DNA from: a virus
Virus record (IMG/VR): IMGVR_UViG_3300042344_000022
Coordinates: 1-64,000 of that record
Reading direction: 5' to 3' (one strand)
Length of the DNA stretch: 64,000 bases
This document shows, in pieces, positions 42,269 through 63,647 of this stretch (positions are counted from its first letter, which is position 1; every line of letters starts with the position of its first letter). The notes beneath the pieces were generated by a model, which worked only from the letters and a program-made list of their open reading frames with translations, had not been told where the DNA came from and did not search any database. The position numbers and the translations under genes are program-made.

Positions 42269-43018
42269 ATGTCTATTACTAAACCGGCAAATAAAGAAGA
42301 ACTAAAAGACTTCTGTTTAAGACAGTTGGGTTACCCTGTTATTCAAATCAATGTTGATGATGAACAGGTCAATGATGCCGTTGAACTTGCCTTTGAATAC
42401 TGGAACGAGTTTCACTTTGACGGCACAGAACGCACCTATGTTAAGCATCAAATCTCATCCCAAGATAAATCTAACGGTTACATTCAACTATCAGATCAGA
42501 TTATTGGTGCCGTTCGTATCTTCCCTGTAGGTGGAACTAATGCCTCTATGGGTATGTTCGATCTAAGATATCAGTTGCGTCTAAACGATCTATGGGATTT
42601 GTCATCAACATCATATGTCAATTACTCATTGACTATGCAGCATCTAGCCACACTTGATCTTATCTTCACAGGTCAAACTCCAGTTCGTTTCAACAAAGTC
42701 AATAACCGTCTATACATCGATATGGACTGGATGAATGACGTTGATACTGGTGAGTTTGTTATTGTAGAAGGAATGATCATTACCGATCCAGTTCAATTTA
42801 CTGCGGTATGGAATAACCGTATGCTCAAGAAATTAGCCACTGCCTATGTTAAGCGCCAGTGGGGACAGAACATGTCAAAGTTTGATAAGATGCAGCTACC
42901 AGGTGGCGTAACAATGCGTGGTGCTGATATCTATGCAGAGGCTATGAATGAAATCACAGCAGCCGAGCGAGAGATTAGAGAAACATACGAGGCCCCTCCT
43001 GGCTTCTTGGTAGGTTAA
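42269..43018 (+). CDS. 13: Neck protein gp13
   Basis: 249 residues (T4 gp13: 309). Family features: LKDFCLRQLGYPVIQINVDDEQVNDAVELAFEYW (given here as two adjoining motifs ending in EYW), GYIQLSDQIIGAVRIFPV near residue 70, and VWNNRMLKKLATAYVKRQWGQNMSKF around 175-200. gp13 forms the dodecameric ring joined to the portal after packaging. First gene of the 13-14-15 late unit; gene 14 starts 1 base after its stop. Confidence 0.92.
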   Translation: MSITKPANKEELKDFCLRQLGYPVIQINVDDEQVNDAVELAFEYWNEFHFDGTERTYVKHQISSQDKSNGYIQLSDQIIGAVRIFPVGGTNASMGMFDLRYQLRLNDLWDLSSTSYVNYSLTMQHLATLDLIFTGQTPVRFNKVNNRLYIDMDWMNDVDTGEFVIVEGMIITDPVQFTAVWNNRMLKKLATAYVKRQWGQNMSKFDKMQLPGGVTMRGADIYAEAMNEITAAEREIRETYEAPPGFLVG

Positions 43019-43019
43019 G

Positions 43020-43922
43020 ATGGCCGTATCAGGGTATTTCAACAACTCCCCATCACAAGATAGAATGAGCAATGAACATCACCTTATGGAGGATGTTATT
43101 GTTGAGTCTATTCAGATCATGGGCCAGAACGTCTATTATATTCCTAGAGAATCCTTTGACGCTGGTGATATGATCTTTGGTGAGTATAGCAAATCAAAGT
43201 TTGACAAAGCATACCTAATTGAAGCCTACATGACTAACTTTGAAGGTTTCGAAGGTGACAATGACTTCTTCTCTAAGTTCGGTCTAGAGATTAGAGAAAC
43301 ATCTAATTTTATAATTTCACTAAAGGCTTTCAAAAGACTCATACCAACAACCCTTCGTCAGCGCCCGCAAGAAGGTGACTTACTTTATATTCCTGTCATC
43401 AAGAGTTTAGTTGAAATCAAGTTCGTTGAACAGGAACTAATGTTTCACTCTCTAGGTAAGAGACTGCCATTCGTTTATGAAATGCGTTGCGAACTGTTCC
43501 GTTACAGCGAAGAAGAAATCAATACAGGCATCGAAGATATCGATGAAGTGGCAGCCGAAGTGCAATATACAACCAGACTTATGATCTCTAATGCAGTAAC
43601 TTATAATCCTGCGGCATCAAGTTATCATGACGGTGAGATTGTATATCAATCAACCGATGGTACCTGGGCTAATAACTTTGCCTCTGCTACAATCACAGAG
43701 TTCTACAAAGCCAACGGCGCTCTATTCCTACATAACATTGAAGGACAGTTTAGAGCAAATGCCAACGTATATGGCAATGTATCACGAGCAATCTTCCGCT
43801 CAATCTCTTATGATGACAGAACAGACTTCAATCCATATGATGACTATGACAACGAAGAATTTAGAACAGAAACTAATATCATTCTAGATTTGAGCGAAAC
43901 TAATCCGTTTGGAACACCATAA
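43020..43922 (+). CDS. 14: Neck protein gp14
   Basis: 300 residues (T4 gp14: 256). Conserved parts: MEDVIVESIQIMGQNVYYIPRE, FDKAYLIEAYMTNFEGFEGDNDFFSKFG (two adjoining motifs), LIPTTLRQRPQEGDLLYIP and LPFVYEMRCELFRYSEEEI. gp14 forms the hexameric ring below gp13 that gates DNA and receives the tail. The N-terminus carries a short YFNNSPSQDR segment. The stop overlaps the gene 15 start (TAATG). Confidence 0.92.
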   Translation: MAVSGYFNNSPSQDRMSNEHHLMEDVIVESIQIMGQNVYYIPRESFDAGDMIFGEYSKSKFDKAYLIEAYMTNFEGFEGDNDFFSKFGLEIRETSNFIISLKAFKRLIPTTLRQRPQEGDLLYIPVIKSLVEIKFVEQELMFHSLGKRLPFVYEMRCELFRYSEEEINTGIEDIDEVAAEVQYTTRLMISNAVTYNPAASSYHDGEIVYQSTDGTWANNFASATITEFYKANGALFLHNIEGQFRANANVYGNVSRAIFRSISYDDRTDFNPYDDYDNEEFRTETNIILDLSETNPFGTP

Positions 43923-44929
43923 TGTTAGGTAATTCACATTTCTACCATCAGCTAACAAGAAAGGCCGTTATTCTATTCGGTCGCTTGTTTGATGATATCA
44001 CTATCATTAGAAAGAATGATCAGACTGGTAAAGAAACCAGCCGCTTTCTTGTACCTATCATCTATGCTCCTAAGGAGAAGATGGTTACTCGTATTCTATC
44101 CGACCCTGACCTACTAAGATCAGTTGGCGTTATTCTGCCACGTATGTCATTCGAGATTACAGGTATCACATATGATGCCACGAGAAAACAAAACTCTCTG
44201 CTAAAGGCAGCTAAGACTAATTCAGCAACTAACGTATCTGCAAGTTATATGGGTGTGCCATATGACATTACATTTGCATTGAACATCTATGCTCGTAACA
44301 TTGATGACGGTACTCATATTGTAGAACAGATTATGCCGTTTTTCAATCCTGACTTTACAGTTACAACTAATATGATTCCTGATCTAGGTGCCTTGAAAGA
44401 TATCCCTATCATTCTCAATTCTGTGGCAAATGATATTGCATATGAAGGCAATTACGATTCCGTTAGATATGTTAATTGGACACTAACCTTCACAATGAAG
44501 ATGCATTACTATGGTGCTATATCTTCACCTAAGATTATCAAATCAGTTTATGCCAACATATATGATGACAACTCACTAAAGTCTGGCTACATTACTCGTT
44601 TGAATGTTATCAATGCTAATGGTACATTCAAAGCAGACGACTATGTGTTCCAGGGTAACTCTTACAATACGGCATCAGCATACGGTATTGTTATGAACTA
44701 TAGTGCTAACACAGGCAAACTTGTTTTGGGTGCTACTCAAGGACAGTTTAGAGTTAATAACACAATTCACGCCGTATCAACAAACGGTGTGTGTCAGATT
44801 GATTCGTTTGTGGTCGACCCGATTAAGTTAGCAGAGATCAAGATAGAGCCCGATCCTCTTACAGCGCAGGCTGGTGACGATTATGGTTATGATGTTACTA
44901 TCACAGAGTGGCCAGACACAGAAGTATAA
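43922..44929 (+). CDS. 15: Tail sheath terminator / completion protein gp15
   Basis: 335 residues (T4 gp15: 272). The start HFYHQLTRKAVILFGRLFDDITIIRK is the usual gp15 signature; PIIYAPKEKMVTRILSDPDL and LPRMSFEITGITYDATRKQN follow. gp15 caps the tail and joins it to the neck. The C-terminal 90 residues (TRLNVINANGTFKADDYVFQG and later) are an extra beta domain compared with T4. The TAA stop is inside a perfect late promoter for genes 16 and 17. Confidence 0.92.
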   Translation: MLGNSHFYHQLTRKAVILFGRLFDDITIIRKNDQTGKETSRFLVPIIYAPKEKMVTRILSDPDLLRSVGVILPRMSFEITGITYDATRKQNSLLKAAKTNSATNVSASYMGVPYDITFALNIYARNIDDGTHIVEQIMPFFNPDFTVTTNMIPDLGALKDIPIILNSVANDIAYEGNYDSVRYVNWTLTFTMKMHYYGAISSPKIIKSVYANIYDDNSLKSGYITRLNVINANGTFKADDYVFQGNSYNTASAYGIVMNYSANTGKLVLGATQGQFRVNNTIHAVSTNGVCQIDSFVVDPIKLAEIKIEPDPLTAQAGDDYGYDVTITEWPDTEV

Positions 44930-44932
44930 ATA
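44925..44932 (+). promoter_or_regulatory. Consensus late promoter TATAAATA before gene 16
   Basis: Exact consensus, embedding the gene 15 stop (44927-44929). Predicted +1 near 44938 with AGGAT in the leader before the ATG at 44958. Confidence 0.8.
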
Positions 44933-44957
44933 TCAAAAATGTTTAGGATAAGTTATT

Positions 44958-45413
44958 ATGGGTGTTGAAAAGAATTTATCGGATGCTTTAGGTATTCCTC
45001 ATGAACCTGTTGAAGAAAAGAAGCAGGAGGTCATTCCTTATGAAGCACCTCCTTCTGATTTGACCGATGAAGATGAAGATTATATTCTTGTAAGAAAGAC
45101 CCTTCGCAACCTAATAGTAAAGGGAAACGATGCAATCGAAGAAATCGCCACCATCGCCAGACAAAACGAAAGTGCAAGGGGTTTTGAGGTTGTTTCTAAC
45201 CTCATCAAAACTGTTGGCGAAACTTCCAAAGACCTCTACGCACTACAAAAAACGAAAAAAGACCTAAGGGAACCTAATCCAGAATCTGATCCTCGTAAGA
45301 AGAATCCAGAGGGTCACATCAACGTGGAACAGGCAGTCTTTGTAGGCTCTACAGCCGAACTATTGTCCGCCATCAAGACTAAGAGAGAGCAAGATGGCAA
45401 GGACGCCGTTTAG
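44958..45413 (+). CDS. 16: Small terminase subunit gp16
   Basis: 151 residues (T4: 164). Central helices DDYILVRKTLRNLIVKGNDA-like and SARGFEVVSNLIKTVGETSKDLYALQK match the coiled-coil oligomerisation core of gp16. The C-terminal EQAVFVGSTAELL is also typical. gp16 forms rings that regulate the gp17 motor during packaging initiation. The gene overlaps gene 17 by 20 bases, as often seen in this pair. Confidence 0.88.
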   Translation: MGVEKNLSDALGIPHEPVEEKKQEVIPYEAPPSDLTDEDEDYILVRKTLRNLIVKGNDAIEEIATIARQNESARGFEVVSNLIKTVGETSKDLYALQKTKKDLREPNPESDPRKKNPEGHINVEQAVFVGSTAELLSAIKTKREQDGKDAV

Positions 45414-47070
45414 TTATCAGAATAACCCCAACCTGCCTAATGAGCAGTATCGTCATGCATTTACACAAGCAGAACTAGATGAATATATCAAGTGTGCTGA
45501 CGACCCCGTTTATTTTGCCAAGAAGTATATCAAGATCATCAACGTTGATCGTGGTTTGATCCCATTTGAAATGTGGGACTTTCAGGAGCGTATGCTTCAA
45601 TCATTCCACGACAATCGTTTTTCTATCTGCAAACTACCACGACAGGTTGGCAAATCCACAACTAGTGTGGCATACATTCTGCATCAGGTTCTATTCAATG
45701 AGAACTATGTGGTTGCTATTCTAGCTAACCGTGCTCCTACCGCTCGTGAATTGCTACAGAAACTAAAACTGGCGTTTGAGTATTTGCCTATGTTTCTCAA
45801 GCAAGGCATCAAAGAGTGGAACAAAGGTTCTATCTATCTTGCTAATGGTTCAAGAGTTCTAGCCGACTCCACCTCAGGTTCATCTGTCCGTGGTTTCTCG
45901 TTCAACCTAATCTTTCTGGACGAGTTCGCATTCGTACCTAACAACATTGCCGAGGAGTTCTTTAACTCTACATATCCTACCATTTCATCTGGTCAAAGTT
46001 CAAAGGTCGTTATCGTTTCTACCCCTAACGGTATGAACCTATTCTATAAGATGTGGACAAAAGCAGTTGAAAAGACTAGCACATATATCCCTATTGAGAT
46101 CCACTGGTCGATGGTACCTGGCAGAGATGCCAAGTGGGCAGAAGAAACTATCAGAAACACTAGTCAAAGACAGTTCGACCAAGAGTTTGGTTGTGAGTTC
46201 TTAGGTTCATCTAACACACTAATCAATGGTGCTAAACTAGCATCGCTGCACTGGAAAGAGCCAATCTATAGAAACGAATGTATGGATGTATTCGAGGATC
46301 CTATTCCTAAGCATACCTATGTGTTATGTGCTGATGTTGCTGAAGGACAGGGTCTTGACTACTCTACATTTTCTATCTTTGACGTTACAGAAATACCTTA
46401 TAGGCAGGTCGCTAAATATAGAAACAACGAGATTAGCCCTATGCTACTACCAGCGGTAATCTATTCTGCCGCTACTAAGTATAACGAGGCTTTCGTTCTT
46501 ATAGAAATCAATTCTATCGGTCTACAGGTAGCAGATATCTTACACTTTGAGTTGAACTATGAGAACTTACTAAAGTTTCAGATCAAGGGTAAACAAGGTA
46601 TGCAAGCCTCTGGTGGCTTTGCTGCTGGTAAGAACAAACTAGCATTTGGTCTAAAGATTACCGCACAGTCTAAGATGATTGGTTGTGCTAACCTCAAGAC
46701 ACTAGTTGAGAGCGATAAACTCATTCTTAACGACGAAGATACGATTACAGAACTATTCTCTTTCTCTGCTAACAAGAAATCATTCATGGCAGAAGAAGGA
46801 TCAAACGACGACCTTGCAATGACCTGTGTTCATTTTGGGTGGTTGACTGCACAAAAGCTATTCAAAGAAACAGTTTCAAATGATATCAGATATGTTCTAC
46901 AGAAAGAACTAGGTTACCTACAGGATGTTGAGAACGTACCTTTTGGTTTCATTGATAACGGTTTAGATGATTACGTGGAACAAGATGCTAATGGTGACTT
47001 ATGGCGAAGTGATAGAGAAGCTATGTATCCTTTCGATAATCTCAATTACGATTGGAACAGTAAGTTATAA
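45394..47070 (+). CDS. 17: Large terminase subunit gp17 (ATPase and nuclease)
   Basis: 558 residues (T4: 610). Walker A RQVGKST at 83-89, with the preceding adenine-binding Q in WDFQERML near 64; Walker B LIFLDE at 172-177; coupling motif VSTPNG near 209-213. The nuclease domain begins near 305, with CADVAEG (D314) and D322 and the later LIEINSIG and SNDDLAMT acidic residues. It packages DNA into proheads and cuts the concatemer. The start overlaps gene 16; upstream AAGAGAGAGCAAG can serve as ribosome site. Very secure call. Confidence 0.96.
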   Translation: MARTPFSYQNNPNLPNEQYRHAFTQAELDEYIKCADDPVYFAKKYIKIINVDRGLIPFEMWDFQERMLQSFHDNRFSICKLPRQVGKSTTSVAYILHQVLFNENYVVAILANRAPTARELLQKLKLAFEYLPMFLKQGIKEWNKGSIYLANGSRVLADSTSGSSVRGFSFNLIFLDEFAFVPNNIAEEFFNSTYPTISSGQSSKVVIVSTPNGMNLFYKMWTKAVEKTSTYIPIEIHWSMVPGRDAKWAEETIRNTSQRQFDQEFGCEFLGSSNTLINGAKLASLHWKEPIYRNECMDVFEDPIPKHTYVLCADVAEGQGLDYSTFSIFDVTEIPYRQVAKYRNNEISPMLLPAVIYSAATKYNEAFVLIEINSIGLQVADILHFELNYENLLKFQIKGKQGMQASGGFAAGKNKLAFGLKITAQSKMIGCANLKTLVESDKLILNDEDTITELFSFSANKKSFMAEEGSNDDLAMTCVHFGWLTAQKLFKETVSNDIRYVLQKELGYLQDVENVPFGFIDNGLDDYVEQDANGDLWRSDREAMYPFDNLNYDWNSKL

Positions 47071-58892: not shown

Positions 58893-58921
58893 TAGAAGTT
58901 AGATACGATCTAAGAACTGAG

Positions 58922-58949
58922 AGAGAGGCCTTCGGGCCTCTCTTTTTTT
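58922..58949 (+). terminator. Strong rho-independent terminator with UUCG loop after gene 23
   Basis: AGAGAGGCC (58922-58930), loop TTCG, GGCCTCTCT (58935-58943) and a run of seven T (58943-58949). A 9-bp G/C-rich stem with an extra-stable tetraloop, ending the head-gene transcripts. Confidence 0.95.
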
Positions 58950-59547: not shown

Positions 59548-59997
59548 ATGTTGAAACCACCAGTGAATATTGACGACTTGATGAAGGAATGGTCACAAGA
59601 TGGTTCTATTGATTCCACATCAATGGAAAAAGAACTATTGAAGATATCTCACCTTCACGGTAAATACCTAAACATCATGTCCTTTCATAGACACCTACTC
59701 CGCAAGATGGAGACTGATTATAAAATCATGAAGGGTCTAAGAGAGGATTACTATCAGGGTCATCTTACACAGGAAGAACTAGTAGAACGTGGTTGGGAAC
59801 CTATGCAGCATGTTCTATCTAACCCACAGATTGCTAGAAAACTCGACACAGACCAAGAACTAAATAAACTGTTACTGAAACGAGTTGCCCATGAGGAGAT
59901 TGTATCTTATTGTGAGAATGTCCTCAAGTCTCTAAACAATAGAACCTGGGACCTAGGCAACTATGTAAAGTATTTGCAGATGACAAACGGTAGATAA
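59548..59997 (+). CDS. uvsY: Recombination mediator UvsY
   Basis: Start chosen at the ATG with TGGAG 5 bases upstream, giving 149 residues (T4: 137); an in-frame ATG at 59524 lies before the ribosome site and at the expected transcript start. Helical protein with DLMKEWSQDGSIDSTSMEKELLKISHLHGKYL (in two adjoining motifs), YKIMKGLREDYYQGHL near residue 70, and ARKLDTDQELNKLLLKRVAHEEIVSYCENVLKSL near the end, all as in UvsY. It loads the UvsX recombinase onto gp32-coated ssDNA. It overlaps uvsW by one base. Confidence 0.9.
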   Translation: MLKPPVNIDDLMKEWSQDGSIDSTSMEKELLKISHLHGKYLNIMSFHRHLLRKMETDYKIMKGLREDYYQGHLTQEELVERGWEPMQHVLSNPQIARKLDTDQELNKLLLKRVAHEEIVSYCENVLKSLNNRTWDLGNYVKYLQMTNGR

Positions 59998-61469
59998 TGA
60001 CACACTTGATTATAACAAATGCGGATGAATCCTATATTAAAGTTCATTGTGACGAAAGCGTTGCATGGGAACTTAGGGATGCATTCTCATTCCGTCCTCC
60101 AGGGTTTCAGTTTGTGCCTTCTTACAGACAGAAACTTTGGGACGGCTATCTAAGACTATTCAATCCTCTCAATAGACAAATCTATCGTGGTCTTGCCCCA
60201 CAGGTAATAAAGTGGGCAACCGATAGAGGATATACCTATGAGTATGCGGACGAAGATTATGACACATCCTTTTCAGTGGAAGAAGCAAATGAGTATATTG
60301 AAAAACTCAATCCCAAACATATGCCTAGAGATTATCAGGTTAACTCTTTCGTCCATGCAATACGTTCTAAGCGTCGTATTGTGTTGTCTCCTACTGGTTC
60401 AGGCAAGTCTTTGCTTCTTTACATGGTCTCTATGTATCTGCTTACCAAAGGGAAGAGAGGTCTTATCATCGTTCCTAGGTCGGCCCTTGTAGAACAGTTG
60501 TATTCAGACTTTGAGGACTATTCTGTAAAGAATGGTAAAGACATGTCTAAGTATTGTCACCGTGTCTATTCTGGTAAAGATAAGGTAACAGATAAGCCTG
60601 TTTGTATCTCTACTTGGCAGTCATTATATAAGATGCCTAAAGAATACTTTCAGCAGTTTGACTATGTTATCTGTGACGAGGTACATCAGGCACAAGCAAA
60701 GTCTCTTACCGACATTGTAGGTAAATGCACCAAGGCAGAATATCGTTTAGGTGTTACTGGTACTCTTACCGGTGCTAAGGCTCATGAATGGCAACTTGTA
60801 GGATTGTTTGGTCAAATCTATAAGGCTACTACATCAAAAGAACTTATGGACAATAAGCAATTAGCAGCCTTGACTATTAAGTGCCTTGTTCTAAAGTACC
60901 CTGATGAAGAATGTCATTATATGAAATCTGCGGACTATAAGACCGAGATTGATTACATTGTGTCACACAAGGAACGTAACAAGTTCATTGTGAACCTTGC
61001 ATTGTCTCTAGAAGGTAATACACTTGTGTTTTTCAACTTTGTTGAGAAGCATGGACAGGTGCTATACGACATGCTAAATAAGAAAGCAAAAGATCGTAAA
61101 GTATTTTTTATTCATGGAGGAACAGACGTAGATGACCGAGAACAAATACGAAGGATCGTCGAGACGGAACGTAATGCTATTATTGTTGGGTCCGTTGGCG
61201 TTCTCAGCACTGGTACTAACATCGTGGCCCTCAATAATGTCATATTTGCATCCCCTTCCAAGTCCAAGGTTAGAAACCTTCAGTCCATCGGGCGTGGTCT
61301 CCGTGTCAACAGCACTAAGGAATCCGCCACGCTCTTTGACATTGCCGACGACTTTAAGTGGAAAGCCCATGATAACTATACTCTTAAACACTTCTTCGAA
61401 CGCCTCAAAACCTACGGTGAAGAAAAGTTCCATTTCAAAATCTACAAAATTAAGGTCAAAGAAACGTAG
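59997..61469 (+). CDS. uvsW: Recombination and repair helicase UvsW
   Basis: 490 residues, SF2 helicase. Q-motif-like MPRDYQVNSFVHAI near 109; Walker A SPTGSGKS at 131-138; DEVH box at 227-230; motif III GVTGTL at 252-257; and motif VI SIGRGLR near 440. The N-terminal domain (YRQKLWDGYLRLFN) is the UvsW-specific DNA-binding module. It unwinds D-loops, R-loops and branched DNA, switching origin-dependent to recombination-dependent replication. TAATG coupled to uvsY and driven by the same sigma70 promoter. Confidence 0.95.
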   Translation: MTHLIITNADESYIKVHCDESVAWELRDAFSFRPPGFQFVPSYRQKLWDGYLRLFNPLNRQIYRGLAPQVIKWATDRGYTYEYADEDYDTSFSVEEANEYIEKLNPKHMPRDYQVNSFVHAIRSKRRIVLSPTGSGKSLLLYMVSMYLLTKGKRGLIIVPRSALVEQLYSDFEDYSVKNGKDMSKYCHRVYSGKDKVTDKPVCISTWQSLYKMPKEYFQQFDYVICDEVHQAQAKSLTDIVGKCTKAEYRLGVTGTLTGAKAHEWQLVGLFGQIYKATTSKELMDNKQLAALTIKCLVLKYPDEECHYMKSADYKTEIDYIVSHKERNKFIVNLALSLEGNTLVFFNFVEKHGQVLYDMLNKKAKDRKVFFIHGGTDVDDREQIRRIVETERNAIIVGSVGVLSTGTNIVALNNVIFASPSKSKVRNLQSIGRGLRVNSTKESATLFDIADDFKWKAHDNYTLKHFFERLKTYGEEKFHFKIYKIKVKET

Positions 61470-61476
61470 GTGATCT

Positions 61477-61881
61477 ATGAATGATGTCAGTGATAACCCT
61501 GTAGCAAAGTTCCTTAGACTACAGAATGGTGATGATATTGTAGCTGAAACGGTAGAGTATGAAGATGAAAATGGTATAATGTATATGGTAATGAATCCTA
61601 TGAATGTGGTCTATTCACACACTCACGAAGGATATCTTTCTGTATCGTTTATGCCATGGGTGTTCCCAAAGATGGTAGATCATCAAGAGTTCATGCTACA
61701 TGCCGAAGATGTTCTACTCATTTCAGATGTCACCGAGAAGATGAATATATACTATTGGGACAATGTGCAATCTCTATGCTCACCACAAGAGACTAGACCT
61801 CCTGTAGAACAACCTCAGGAAGAAGAAAGTAATATCTTAGATGTGCTTAGAGAAATGGCAAACAAAAGGACATATCACTAA
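61477..61881 (+). CDS. Conserved small protein after uvsW, possible Sm-like fold
   Basis: 134 residues. AKFLRLQNGDDIVAETVEYED, YMVMNPMNVVYSHTHEGYLSVSFMPW and ADVLLISD-like strands form a small beta barrel reminiscent of Sm/Hfq-type sequences (note the spaced L-x-NG-DDI-AE and the NP-x-x-VV motifs). The last third is Pro/Glu-rich and ends with a helix LDVLREMANKRTYH. Proteins of this type follow uvsW in other T4-like marine phages. RNA binding is only a structural guess. TAATG overlap with the next gene. Confidence 0.65.
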   Translation: MNDVSDNPVAKFLRLQNGDDIVAETVEYEDENGIMYMVMNPMNVVYSHTHEGYLSVSFMPWVFPKMVDHQEFMLHAEDVLLISDVTEKMNIYYWDNVQSLCSPQETRPPVEQPQEEESNILDVLREMANKRTYH

Positions 61882-62174
61882 TGGCTACTGAAAGTAATCC
61901 GTATCTGTCATTCGACGACAAAGAACTAACAGACGACTTTGGGTTTTCTTTTAGCAACGAAGATGATATTGTAGCCGAGGCGGTAGCACCAGCGTCGGAT
62001 GAGATTACAGACCTTAAAAAGAGGCTAGAGGCCATTCGTAAGATATACCTACCCCTATTACAGAACCTCGCTAAAAACTCCGATCAGCCCATTATCAAAT
62101 GGCCGGATCGTGGTCCTGTGCTTAAAAAGCAGATTGATAAACTCACGATGCTAACGGAACCAGGATTCAAGTAG
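61881..62174 (+). CDS. Small conserved protein of unknown function
   Basis: 97 residues: an acidic N-terminus (SFDDKELTDDFGFSFSNEDD) and a helical C-terminus (EITDLKKRLEAIRKIYLPLLQNLAKN, DQPIIKWPDRGPVLKKQIDKL). The latter is a motif I know from small proteins between uvsW and gene 55 in cyanophage-like T4 relatives; no function is known. Its end would be covered by any leftward RNA from the minus-strand promoter at 62264-62292. Confidence 0.65.
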   Translation: MATESNPYLSFDDKELTDDFGFSFSNEDDIVAEAVAPASDEITDLKKRLEAIRKIYLPLLQNLAKNSDQPIIKWPDRGPVLKKQIDKLTMLTEPGFK

Positions 62175-62257
62175 GCAGCTAACTAGATTTGCTTCGCAAA
62201 TCATTCGCTTCGCTCATGGCTGCCTCTTGGCAGGAGGTTATTGGTTGGTTGGCTGCG
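62175..62257 (-). ncRNA. Candidate leftward small RNA, structured 82-base region
   Basis: This 143-base gap has no gene. Read leftward from the minus-strand promoter, RNA would start about 62257 and fold at once: an outer 9-bp stem (62248-62256 with 62175-62183, one G-U), hairpin CUGCC/GGCAG with a 4-base loop (62220-62233), and hairpin GAUUUGC/GCAAAUC with a 3-base loop (62186-62202). The 5' single strand contains AACCUCCU, similar to the anti-Shine-Dalgarno end of 16S rRNA. No T-run follows, so the 3' end is unknown. The same stems would also form in rightward readthrough RNA. Confidence 0.5.
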
Positions 62258-62263
62258 AAGCAC

Positions 62264-62292
62264 ATTATAACCCAGTTCTAAAAATGTGTCAA
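62264..62292 (-). promoter_or_regulatory. Perfect sigma70 promoter on the minus strand (TTGACA-17-TATAAT)
   Basis: On the + strand, ATTATA (62264-62269), 17 bases, then TGTCAA (62287-62292); reverse complement gives TTGACA-17-TATAAT, both hexamers and spacing ideal. It is the only convincing minus-strand promoter I found and faces no minus-strand gene, only the structured region and the 3' end of the upstream genes. Confidence 0.85.
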
Positions 62293-62317: not shown

Positions 62318-63082
62318 ATGTTTCACTTTTTTCACCGCACACCAGAGATTGTTCTAGATTGCTATACAAGCGATCAGAGTTTCTATGCCAACACCCCTAT
62401 CATCAAATCAGGTAAAGCAATTCCAGAATGGTGGAGAGAACTAGAGCCTTATAAAGCAAAGTTCTATCAAGAAGGTGAAAATCCTTATCATCTAAACTCA
62501 AATGAGTTGACAGCACGGGATTGTTATGCTATTATAGAATTATATAAAGTTGGTGCTATACTAGAAAACTGGTGTGATATCTCTTTTAGAACAGCGAACG
62601 GTGAATACAACTATTGGTATTCATCAGGACCTAAACCTGAAACGCATGATAGGAAACAGTTGGGTAACTCATTCCCAGGCTATCATCATATCAAGTTGGT
62701 TAGTCCTTGGGTTATGAGAGAAAGAACTGGAGTCAAATTTATGTGGTTAGGCGCAGAGTGGTCGTTACATAACTATGATATTAAGGTCTTGCCAGGAATA
62801 CTTAGTTTTGATATAGTAACAGCAATGAATGTGAATATCATGTTCCCTATGCATGATGATGAGTTTGTTCTTCCTGTCGGATTGCCTTTAGGGCAACTTG
62901 TTCCTTTGTCTGATAAGAGATTGAAGATCAACAATCATCTAGTCACGGAGCAAGAGTATAACAAACATAGAATGAACTCATTTGGTGTTTCCTTTTACGG
63001 ATGGCGAAGGGCATTGCAATTGAGAGAAAGAAACAAAGAGAGGGGAACATGCCCCTTTCATTCTGGAGATACAGATGGCTAA
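62318..63082 (+). CDS. Conserved phage protein of unknown function upstream of gene 55
   Basis: 254 residues. IVLDCYTSDQSFYANTPIIKSGKAIPEWWREL, CYAIIELYKVGAILENWCDISF, HIKLVSPWVMRERTGVKFMWLGAEW (each in part) and an end CPFHSG with a Cys and a His. The IPEWWREL and IKLVSPW blocks belong to a protein family I know from many marine T4-like phages, with no assigned function. GAGG lies about 10 bases before the ATG. It overlaps gene 55 by 8 bases. Late or middle regulation is unclear; the -10-like TATAAC at 62266 could be shared with the divergent promoter. Confidence 0.68.
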   Translation: MFHFFHRTPEIVLDCYTSDQSFYANTPIIKSGKAIPEWWRELEPYKAKFYQEGENPYHLNSNELTARDCYAIIELYKVGAILENWCDISFRTANGEYNYWYSSGPKPETHDRKQLGNSFPGYHHIKLVSPWVMRERTGVKFMWLGAEWSLHNYDIKVLPGILSFDIVTAMNVNIMFPMHDDEFVLPVGLPLGQLVPLSDKRLKINNHLVTEQEYNKHRMNSFGVSFYGWRRALQLRERNKERGTCPFHSGDTDG

Positions 63083-63647
63083 GAAGAAGAAACACTATGT
63101 AGATAATGAAAAGTTTCTGCAAGAGATTAAAGAATACAAGAAACAATGTAAGATTGCAGAAGCCGAGGGTAAAGAAAAGCCTCGGCTTTCAGAGTATATT
63201 GGTCAGTGTATCTATCTTATCGCAGAGAACTTTGCACATAAGCCTCGTTTTATGAACTATTCGTTCATCGATGAAATGAAGTCAGATGCTATTGAGAACT
63301 GCCTAATGTATTTTGACAACTTTGATTCCGACAAGTATAGCAATCCATTCGCATACTTCACACAGATCATTTACTATGCTTTTCATCGCCGTATTAACAA
63401 AGAAGAAAAGAACCGCTATATAATGTATAAGAAGTTCCAAGAGAGTTTCATTCAGACAGGTAGTGTCGATCAGCTATTAGATGGTGATGGCAATAACGTT
63501 ATCACCCCTATGATGTATGATAACCTAAACCAGTTTATAGGAAATTTTGAAGCAAGAGAAGCAGAAAAGAAGAAGAAGCGCAAACTAGCTAAAGAGGGAC
63601 TTGAAAAGTTTGTAGGAGAGGATGATGAAGGAAGAGAATCAGTTTGA
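63075..63647 (+). CDS. 55: Late-transcription sigma factor gp55
   Basis: 190 residues (T4 gp55: 185). Sigma70 region-2-like block: YIGQCIYLIAENFAHKPRFMNYSF, IDEMKSDAIENCLMYFDNFD, NPFAYFTQIIYYAFHRRINKEEKNRY (each in part), the recognisable gp55 core. The basic N-terminus KKKKHYVD and Lys-rich C-terminus are normal. gp55 directs host RNA polymerase to the TATAAATA-type promoters annotated across this window, with the clamp and gp33 in T4. Start fixed by GGAG upstream and overlap with the preceding gene. Confidence 0.93.
   Translation: MAKKKKHYVDNEKFLQEIKEYKKQCKIAEAEGKEKPRLSEYIGQCIYLIAENFAHKPRFMNYSFIDEMKSDAIENCLMYFDNFDSDKYSNPFAYFTQIIYYAFHRRINKEEKNRYIMYKKFQESFIQTGSVDQLLDGDGNNVITPMMYDNLNQFIGNFEAREAEKKKKRKLAKEGLEKFVGEDDEGRESV

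Follow-up and report, generated by a model that had tools for sequence, protein, structure and literature searches.

Antisense control of late regulators is known from phage lambda, where the aQ RNA is activated by CII and opposes Q itself. In the T4-like cyanophage S-PM2, an antisense RNA of about 225 nt, CfrI, has been described and its transcription shown (Millard et al., 2010; PMC2984593), and antisense transcription has also been noted in cyanophages and linked to the protection of phage mRNA (PMC10976474). The putRNA of phage HK022, about 70 nt in length, contains two stem-loops, and putL comes shortly after an early promoter (PMC9378689). Expression of T4 uvsW is driven by a late promoter, and UvsW removes the R-loops which are needed early by the origins (PMC3016281). 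Cyanomyoviruses lack motA and asi and seemingly use an unmodified sigma70 polymerase in the early phase, and the timing of the middle and late programmes in cyanophages lacking MotA and AsiA, and in related T4-type phages, has been called unsettled (PMC2984593). Here we describe a leftward sigma70 promoter and a predicted structured element located before gp55, the late sigma factor gene, which are very strongly conserved among many T4-like phages of water, a large group. The open-licence literature contains CfrI and the Rfam RNAs in cyanophages, and no account of a leftward promoter or of an RNA in front of gp55 was found in it. The element is apparently undescribed, with an earlier mention being possible outside that literature.

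Gene neighbourhood of the element

The window, i.e. the whole stretch of DNA that was analysed, comprises 64,000 nt of the virus record IMGVR_UViG_3300042344_000022, the full length of which is 68,968 bases. The neighbouring genes were named according to their Pfam and PHROG matches, and their order on the plus strand is gp23, a tail tube gene (gp19-type), uvsY, uvsW, an Sm-like gene, ORF97, the element, ORF254 and gp55 (Table 1). The best matches of gp23 are Pelagibacter phage Mosig with 65%, and Stenotrophomonas phage DLP_6 and Methylophilales phage Melnitz with 62-63%; the source phage is of the T4 type. The match of the Sm-like gene to PF16243 (E 1e-4) remains under the curated cutoff of this Pfam entry. 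An assignment of ORF97 as gp33 was dropped, as its nearest isolate match is Mosig_00152, while the late accessory protein annotated in Mosig is another gene. Only some members of the family have ORF254 between the element and gp55, and gp55 directly adjoins the element in many relatives. Just 3' of gp23, the window also contains a strong intrinsic terminator with a UUCG loop and a T run (58919-58946).

Table 1. Features of the element and its neighbouring genes, in positions of the window.
Feature	Position	Strand	Description
uvsW helicase	59997..61469	+	PF21241 UvsW_N, phrog_16
Sm-like gene	61477..61881	+	T4-GC 139; "methylamine utilization" in cyanophages; PF16243, phrog_471, synteny
ORF97	61881..62174	+	Left neighbour of the element; no Pfam or PHROG match
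H2	62186..62202	-	GATTTGC-GAA-GCAAATC; end about 12 nt from the ORF97 stop codon
H1	62202..62218	-	CATGAGC-GAA-GCGAATG; tandem G.A/A.G mismatches, GNA triloop
Leader	62219..62257	-	5' part of the predicted RNA; C/A-rich, G-poor
H0	62253..62263		Short inverted repeat TGC-TTC-GCA; spans the predicted start, -6 to +5
Predicted +1	~62257	-	Start site of the leftward promoter
-10 hexamer	62264..62269	-	TATAAT, 17-nt spacer; 12/12 promoter match, 12/12 in 41/41 relatives
-35 hexamer	62287..62292	-	TTGACA; 12/12 promoter match, 12/12 in 41/41 relatives
ORF254	62318..63082	+	phrog_7084; between the element and gp55; function not assigned
gp55	63075..63647	+	Late sigma factor; phrog_234, E 2e-53

Conservation of the leftward promoter

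The exact TTGACA-17-TATAAT reported on the minus strand in a preliminary description of the window is indeed present, and it is the sole 12/12 site when both strands of the 64 kb are scanned. The stretch had also been described as gene-free, which holds for conserved genes, all minus-strand ORFs across the element being short. A search of IMG/VR with ORF97 yielded 80 loci, with 304 relatives overall. At nearly all of these loci, the stop codon of ORF97 is followed on its 3' side by two hairpins with a GCTTCGC core (plus strand) and, beyond a spacer, by the minus-strand promoter; the element is absent at the most distant loci (L073-L080). Every locus used for the alignment had the leftward promoter, and none was excluded for its absence. 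The hexamers are intact (12/12) in all 41 distinct relatives whose alignment row is complete, and only one other minus-strand 12/12 site was found across 316 kb of the relatives' sequence, which excludes a chance match.

The left side of the element is constant among the 41 aligned relatives, whereas the right side is occupied by either gp55 or ORF254, so that the element adjoins the 3' end of the uvsW-Sm-like(-ORF97) operon regardless of its right-hand neighbour. A rightward site of at least 10/12 precedes gp55 in 18 of the 41 relatives and is not found where ORF254 follows, as it does in the window; the rightward promoter is absent from the window and from 23/41 relatives. With a constant gene on the left and a variable right side, consisting of gp55 with a promoter or ORF254 without one, the leftward promoter is not a by-product of the promoter of gp55. 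In relatives free of ORF254, a sigma70 promoter directed rightward is often found before gp55.

A mobile repeat was rejected as an explanation, since 14 of the 15 related records with the full element carry it only once. Only G002, a relative of 165 kb, has a second copy, at a distance of about 105 kb (L118 5401-5501, corresponding to G002:C1:14007-14107, minus strand); there the -35 hexamer is weakened to TTGCCA, the start site has a repeat of its own (TGGTT/AACCA), and the copy lies between two unrelated plus-strand genes. Another relative, of 169 kb, has three minus-strand promoters of 11-12/12 within a region coding on the plus strand only (G003:C1, ~42,900-46,500). In a different group of environmental phage contigs (L197, L201, L202, L206, L210, L211, L215, L221 and L222, together with the near-identical L203 and L216), a leftward promoter lies beside a stem GGGTCTT...AAGACCC enclosing TCGCTTCGCTC, which may be an unrelated analogue.

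Two covarying hairpins

Two hairpins, H1 and H2, are located between the leader and the stop codon of ORF97. H1 is strongly conserved and had been overlooked in the preliminary description. Its pattern on the minus strand is CGAGC-GNA-GCGAG, with two inner pairs, invariant tandem G.A/A.G mismatches and covarying outer pairs. H2 corresponds to a hairpin that had already been proposed at this position and is confirmed here; it consists of a variable stem surrounding GC-GAA-GC and ends near the stop codon of the left gene in most relatives. The loops vary from GAA to GUA, GUUA or GUAA, the G...A always being kept; in H2, some relatives have GUUA or GUAA in place of GAA.

Covariation was counted on 28 distinct rows. 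Double changes were observed in four of the five counted pairs of H1 (97.9% of cells paired) and in four of the six counted pairs of H2 (97.5%), i.e. in 8/11 pairs with 97.6% of cells paired for both hairpins combined. The joint covariation score of 0.538 compares with 0.155 for shuffled and at most 0.076 for slid controls, so that the helices covary, as expected of a structured RNA family, beyond both controls. RNAalifold recovered H1 and H2 unaided, and a tree built from the coding DNA left of the element requires a minimum of 5 to 15 changes of pair type for each pair. A small protein-coding ORF was rejected, since the H1-H2 spacing changes by lengths not divisible by three and there is no conservation of start codons. 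A functional fold of the plus strand is unlikely, given that the invariant mismatches of H1, which are G.A when read on the minus strand, become T.C on the plus strand, and that a U.G occurs at the outer pair of H1 on the minus strand; the fold energies of the two strands, however, differ little.

The other structural claims fared less well. The outer stem, described as having 9 bp, has eight pairs and one C.A mismatch on the minus strand and folds as 5+3 pairs, and just 4 of 47 relatives have 5 bp or more joining the 5' end to the tail. A hairpin at 62220-62233 is present only in the source phage and its near-twin. Folding of the 83-nt RNA of the window, which had been suggested as a check, gave a result modestly better than shuffles (z = -2.65, with 1/200 shuffles as good). 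The convincing support for a predicted structure is the conservation and covariation in relatives, where the promoter is invariant and both hairpins covary, and not the single-sequence fold of the window RNA.

The only wobble pair is the U.G at the outermost pair of H1, internal pairs being without wobble, which makes the structure compatible with a role as RNA or as single-stranded DNA. Near-identical phages (L064/L069; L012/L017/L019) have differing H1/H2 stems with intact pairing and without internal G-U intermediates, which suggests that whole hairpins may have been exchanged or rewritten by template switch. The GCGAAGC-type hairpin is unusually stable in DNA, and internal pairs without G-U intermediates suit DNA no less than RNA. 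Both points favour a replication origin of the T4 R-loop type, in which the leftward transcript would prime DNA synthesis and the displaced strand would fold into H1 and H2. In T4, oriF and oriG require a promoter and an unwinding element, and oriE apparently uses an early promoter (PMC3016281). However, the region downstream of the promoter is C/A-rich with 56% A+T, unlike an A+T-rich unwinding element, and the GC skew of a 169-kb relative has no inflection at the element, bearing in mind that T4-type phages have several origins. We consider an origin very improbable.

The start site and the leader

Directly 3' of the -10 hexamer, the predicted start site is spanned by the short inverted repeat H0. 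Across 45 distinct relatives, its 4-nt arms, separated by a 3-nt loop, are 71% complementary at the exact offset, as opposed to at most 45% at the other offsets tried. Inverted repeats at this position also occur in cyanophages, DLP_6 and phiM7, with sequences that differ between clades. A complementarity of 71-75% and clade-specific sequences at the same fixed position would suit a DNA regulatory site, in which H0, as an operator or extruded hairpin, would regulate the promoters in front of gp55, with the RNA arising as a by-product. Such a site would leave the covariation of H1 and H2 further downstream unexplained, and the window, like the 23 relatives mentioned above, has no rightward promoter to be controlled; this explanation therefore appears improbable.

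The leader has a mean composition of 37% A, 31% C, 19% T and 12% G in 47 relatives, and its length ranges from 26 to 56 nt with no long invariant seed. The preliminary description had noted a motif resembling the anti-Shine-Dalgarno sequence in this part, AACCUCCU, which is not conserved; CCUCC is found in 2/47 leaders. As the motif is private to the source phage in this sense, an action on translation via anti-Shine-Dalgarno pairing was rejected. What stands of the structured RNA proposed there, with strong support, is the conserved leftward sigma70 unit with covarying hairpins and no kept reading frame, while the outer stem, the first hairpin and the anti-Shine-Dalgarno motif do not.

Occurrence beyond the family

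In 14 of 17 other T4-type records, the gap before gp55 contains a leftward sigma70 promoter of 10-12/12, mostly followed by an inverted repeat centred on the start site, such as AACC-ATGTAAG-GGTT, AACTCT-GTC-AGAGTT, TCAGG-TGTCG-CCTGA and CAGGA-ATG-TCCTG. No good leftward promoter was found in the remaining three of these records (Melnitz-3, P-TIM40 and ME01). In cyanophages, DLP_6 and locus L109, the gap is situated between the Sm-like gene and gp55 without ORF97. The left neighbour in phiM7 is a different gene encoded on the minus strand, and the promoter there may thus drive an mRNA.

A covariance model of the element detected the full element in L109 (38.5 bits); it did not detect the full element in isolates, nor H1/H2 outside the family. 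Matches to the hairpin pattern reached at most 32.4 bits in bacterial genomes and 35.2 bits in unrelated contigs, compared with 67-106 bits in the family, and look unrelated. The Rfam covariance models gave no match to the element at gathering or relaxed thresholds, the only hit being a chance-level match of GcvB elsewhere. Since the promoter is kept outside the family without H1/H2, the most widely kept feature is leftward transcription and not one RNA sequence. Judged by its distribution, the element has an old layer, consisting of the leftward promoter and its start-site repeat, and a second one, a putatively structured RNA body specific to the clade. It seems doubtful to us that T4-type phages infecting non-enteric hosts widely employ such a promoter, situated between the uvsW operon and the late sigma gene, as a self-limiting early antisense device with a repeat at its start site.

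Extent and possible role of the predicted transcript

The element very probably gives rise to a real leftward noncoding transcript. With regard to its 3' end, there is no U tract after H2, and no intrinsic terminator was found downstream of H2 in 39/43 rows. The T content 3' of H2 does not exceed 6 T per 8-nt window, with 3-5 being typical, and terminator-like matches in 50.6 kb of antisense sequence numbered six, overlapping at four distinct sites. The GC-rich hairpin with a U tract that marks the 3' end of an intrinsically terminated small RNA is thus missing, which weakens the case for a discrete small RNA that acts in trans and has its 3' end at H2, at a length of ~65-100 nt. Such an RNA would pair through its G-poor CCACCACC...AACCAAAUGC leader, with H1 and H2 protecting a 3' end formed by trimming or Rho. 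The leader composition, the invariant promoter and covarying hairpins that end near the stop codon of the left gene argue for it, as does the tight retention of leader, H1 and H2 within the clade. Nevertheless, a leader of variable length lacking a long invariant seed, and the promoter being kept outside the clade where H1/H2 are not shared, speak against it, and we regard a discrete small RNA as somewhat unlikely.

Since H2 is not followed by an intrinsic terminator in nearly all members, transcription should continue into ORF97, the Sm-like gene and uvsW, provided that neither Rho nor trimming intervenes. The position of the element and the missing terminator fit a cis-antisense RNA, the overlap being predicted from the sequence, and in this respect an antisense action on the genes to the left, also raised in the preliminary description, is supported. 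Because of this position, we infer that the uvsW operon may be subject to an early antisense brake; this is the mechanism we favour, put forward tentatively as a serious possibility short of an even chance. Host sigma70 polymerase would initiate at the predicted +1 and produce a noncoding RNA consisting of the C/A-rich unstructured leader, H1 and H2, the hairpins possibly serving in the protection or processing of the RNA. The transcript would read on as antisense into ORF97, the Sm-like gene and uvsW, where Rho or trimming could halt it, and the left-hand operon would be held low via antisense pairing or colliding polymerases as long as the sigma70 polymerase dominates. Once gp55 and its partners redirect the polymerase, the antisense RNA would cease, making the element an early-to-late timing device. 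A reason for delaying uvsW is offered by T4, where UvsW is late and removes the R-loops of the origins. If the widespread device considered above, which we hold doubtful, is real, the swap from sigma70 to gp55 would silence the antisense RNA and free UvsW and its neighbours, and the device would time the change from origin-driven to recombination-driven replication.

Early timing of the leftward unit would fit its host-sigma70 promoter and the right-hand region of one relative, which contains many 12/12 rightward promoters. The window contains 5 copies of TATAAATA where 5.6 are expected; given this lack of enrichment, the left genes are not demonstrable as late there. By analogy with the cyanophages, protection of mRNA would be an alternative outcome of the same predicted antisense RNA. 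In another reading, H1 and H2 would serve as a put-like cis antiterminator that binds RNA polymerase while still in the nascent RNA and protects the untranslated antisense transcript from Rho and terminators. The layout of two stem-loops close to an early promoter resembles HK022 putRNA, a likeness of described layout only; H1 and H2 are small simple hairpins without the bulges of the put stems, and this function has a slim prospect.

Comparison with known systems

Like CfrI, the predicted RNA of the element would be a noncoding antisense RNA in a T4-like phage. They differ in that CfrI is antisense to psbA and a homing endonuclease gene, while the element is situated before gp55 and faces uvsW. 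With HK022 putL, the element shares two stem-loops within ~70 nt close to an early sigma70 promoter. However, the long, bulged stems of put make contact with the beta' zinc-binding domain (PMC9378689), whereas H1 and H2 are short GNA-loop hairpins. The T4 origins oriF, oriG and oriE are likewise promoter-dependent elements in a T4-type phage, with oriF near uvsY (PMC3016281); the element differs from them in having no A+T-rich unwinding element, and none of the described T4 origins is situated upstream of gene 55. The antisense promoter of lambda aQ is positioned to delay the next phage stage, as the promoter described here is proposed to be; the latter requires only sigma70 and is directed into the upstream operon, with gp55 behind it. 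Being retained next to the late sigma gene across much of this group, the leftward sigma70 promoter provides a precise site for testing antisense control of the timing of the middle and late programmes. The manA, wcaG and PhotoRC-II RNAs of cyanophages are, like the predicted RNA of the element, structured RNAs of T4-like phages of water bacteria (PMC2864571; PMC9602691). In contrast to these, the element matches no Rfam family, and it adds a covarying noncoding element outside Rfam that is present in dozens of environmental phage contigs.
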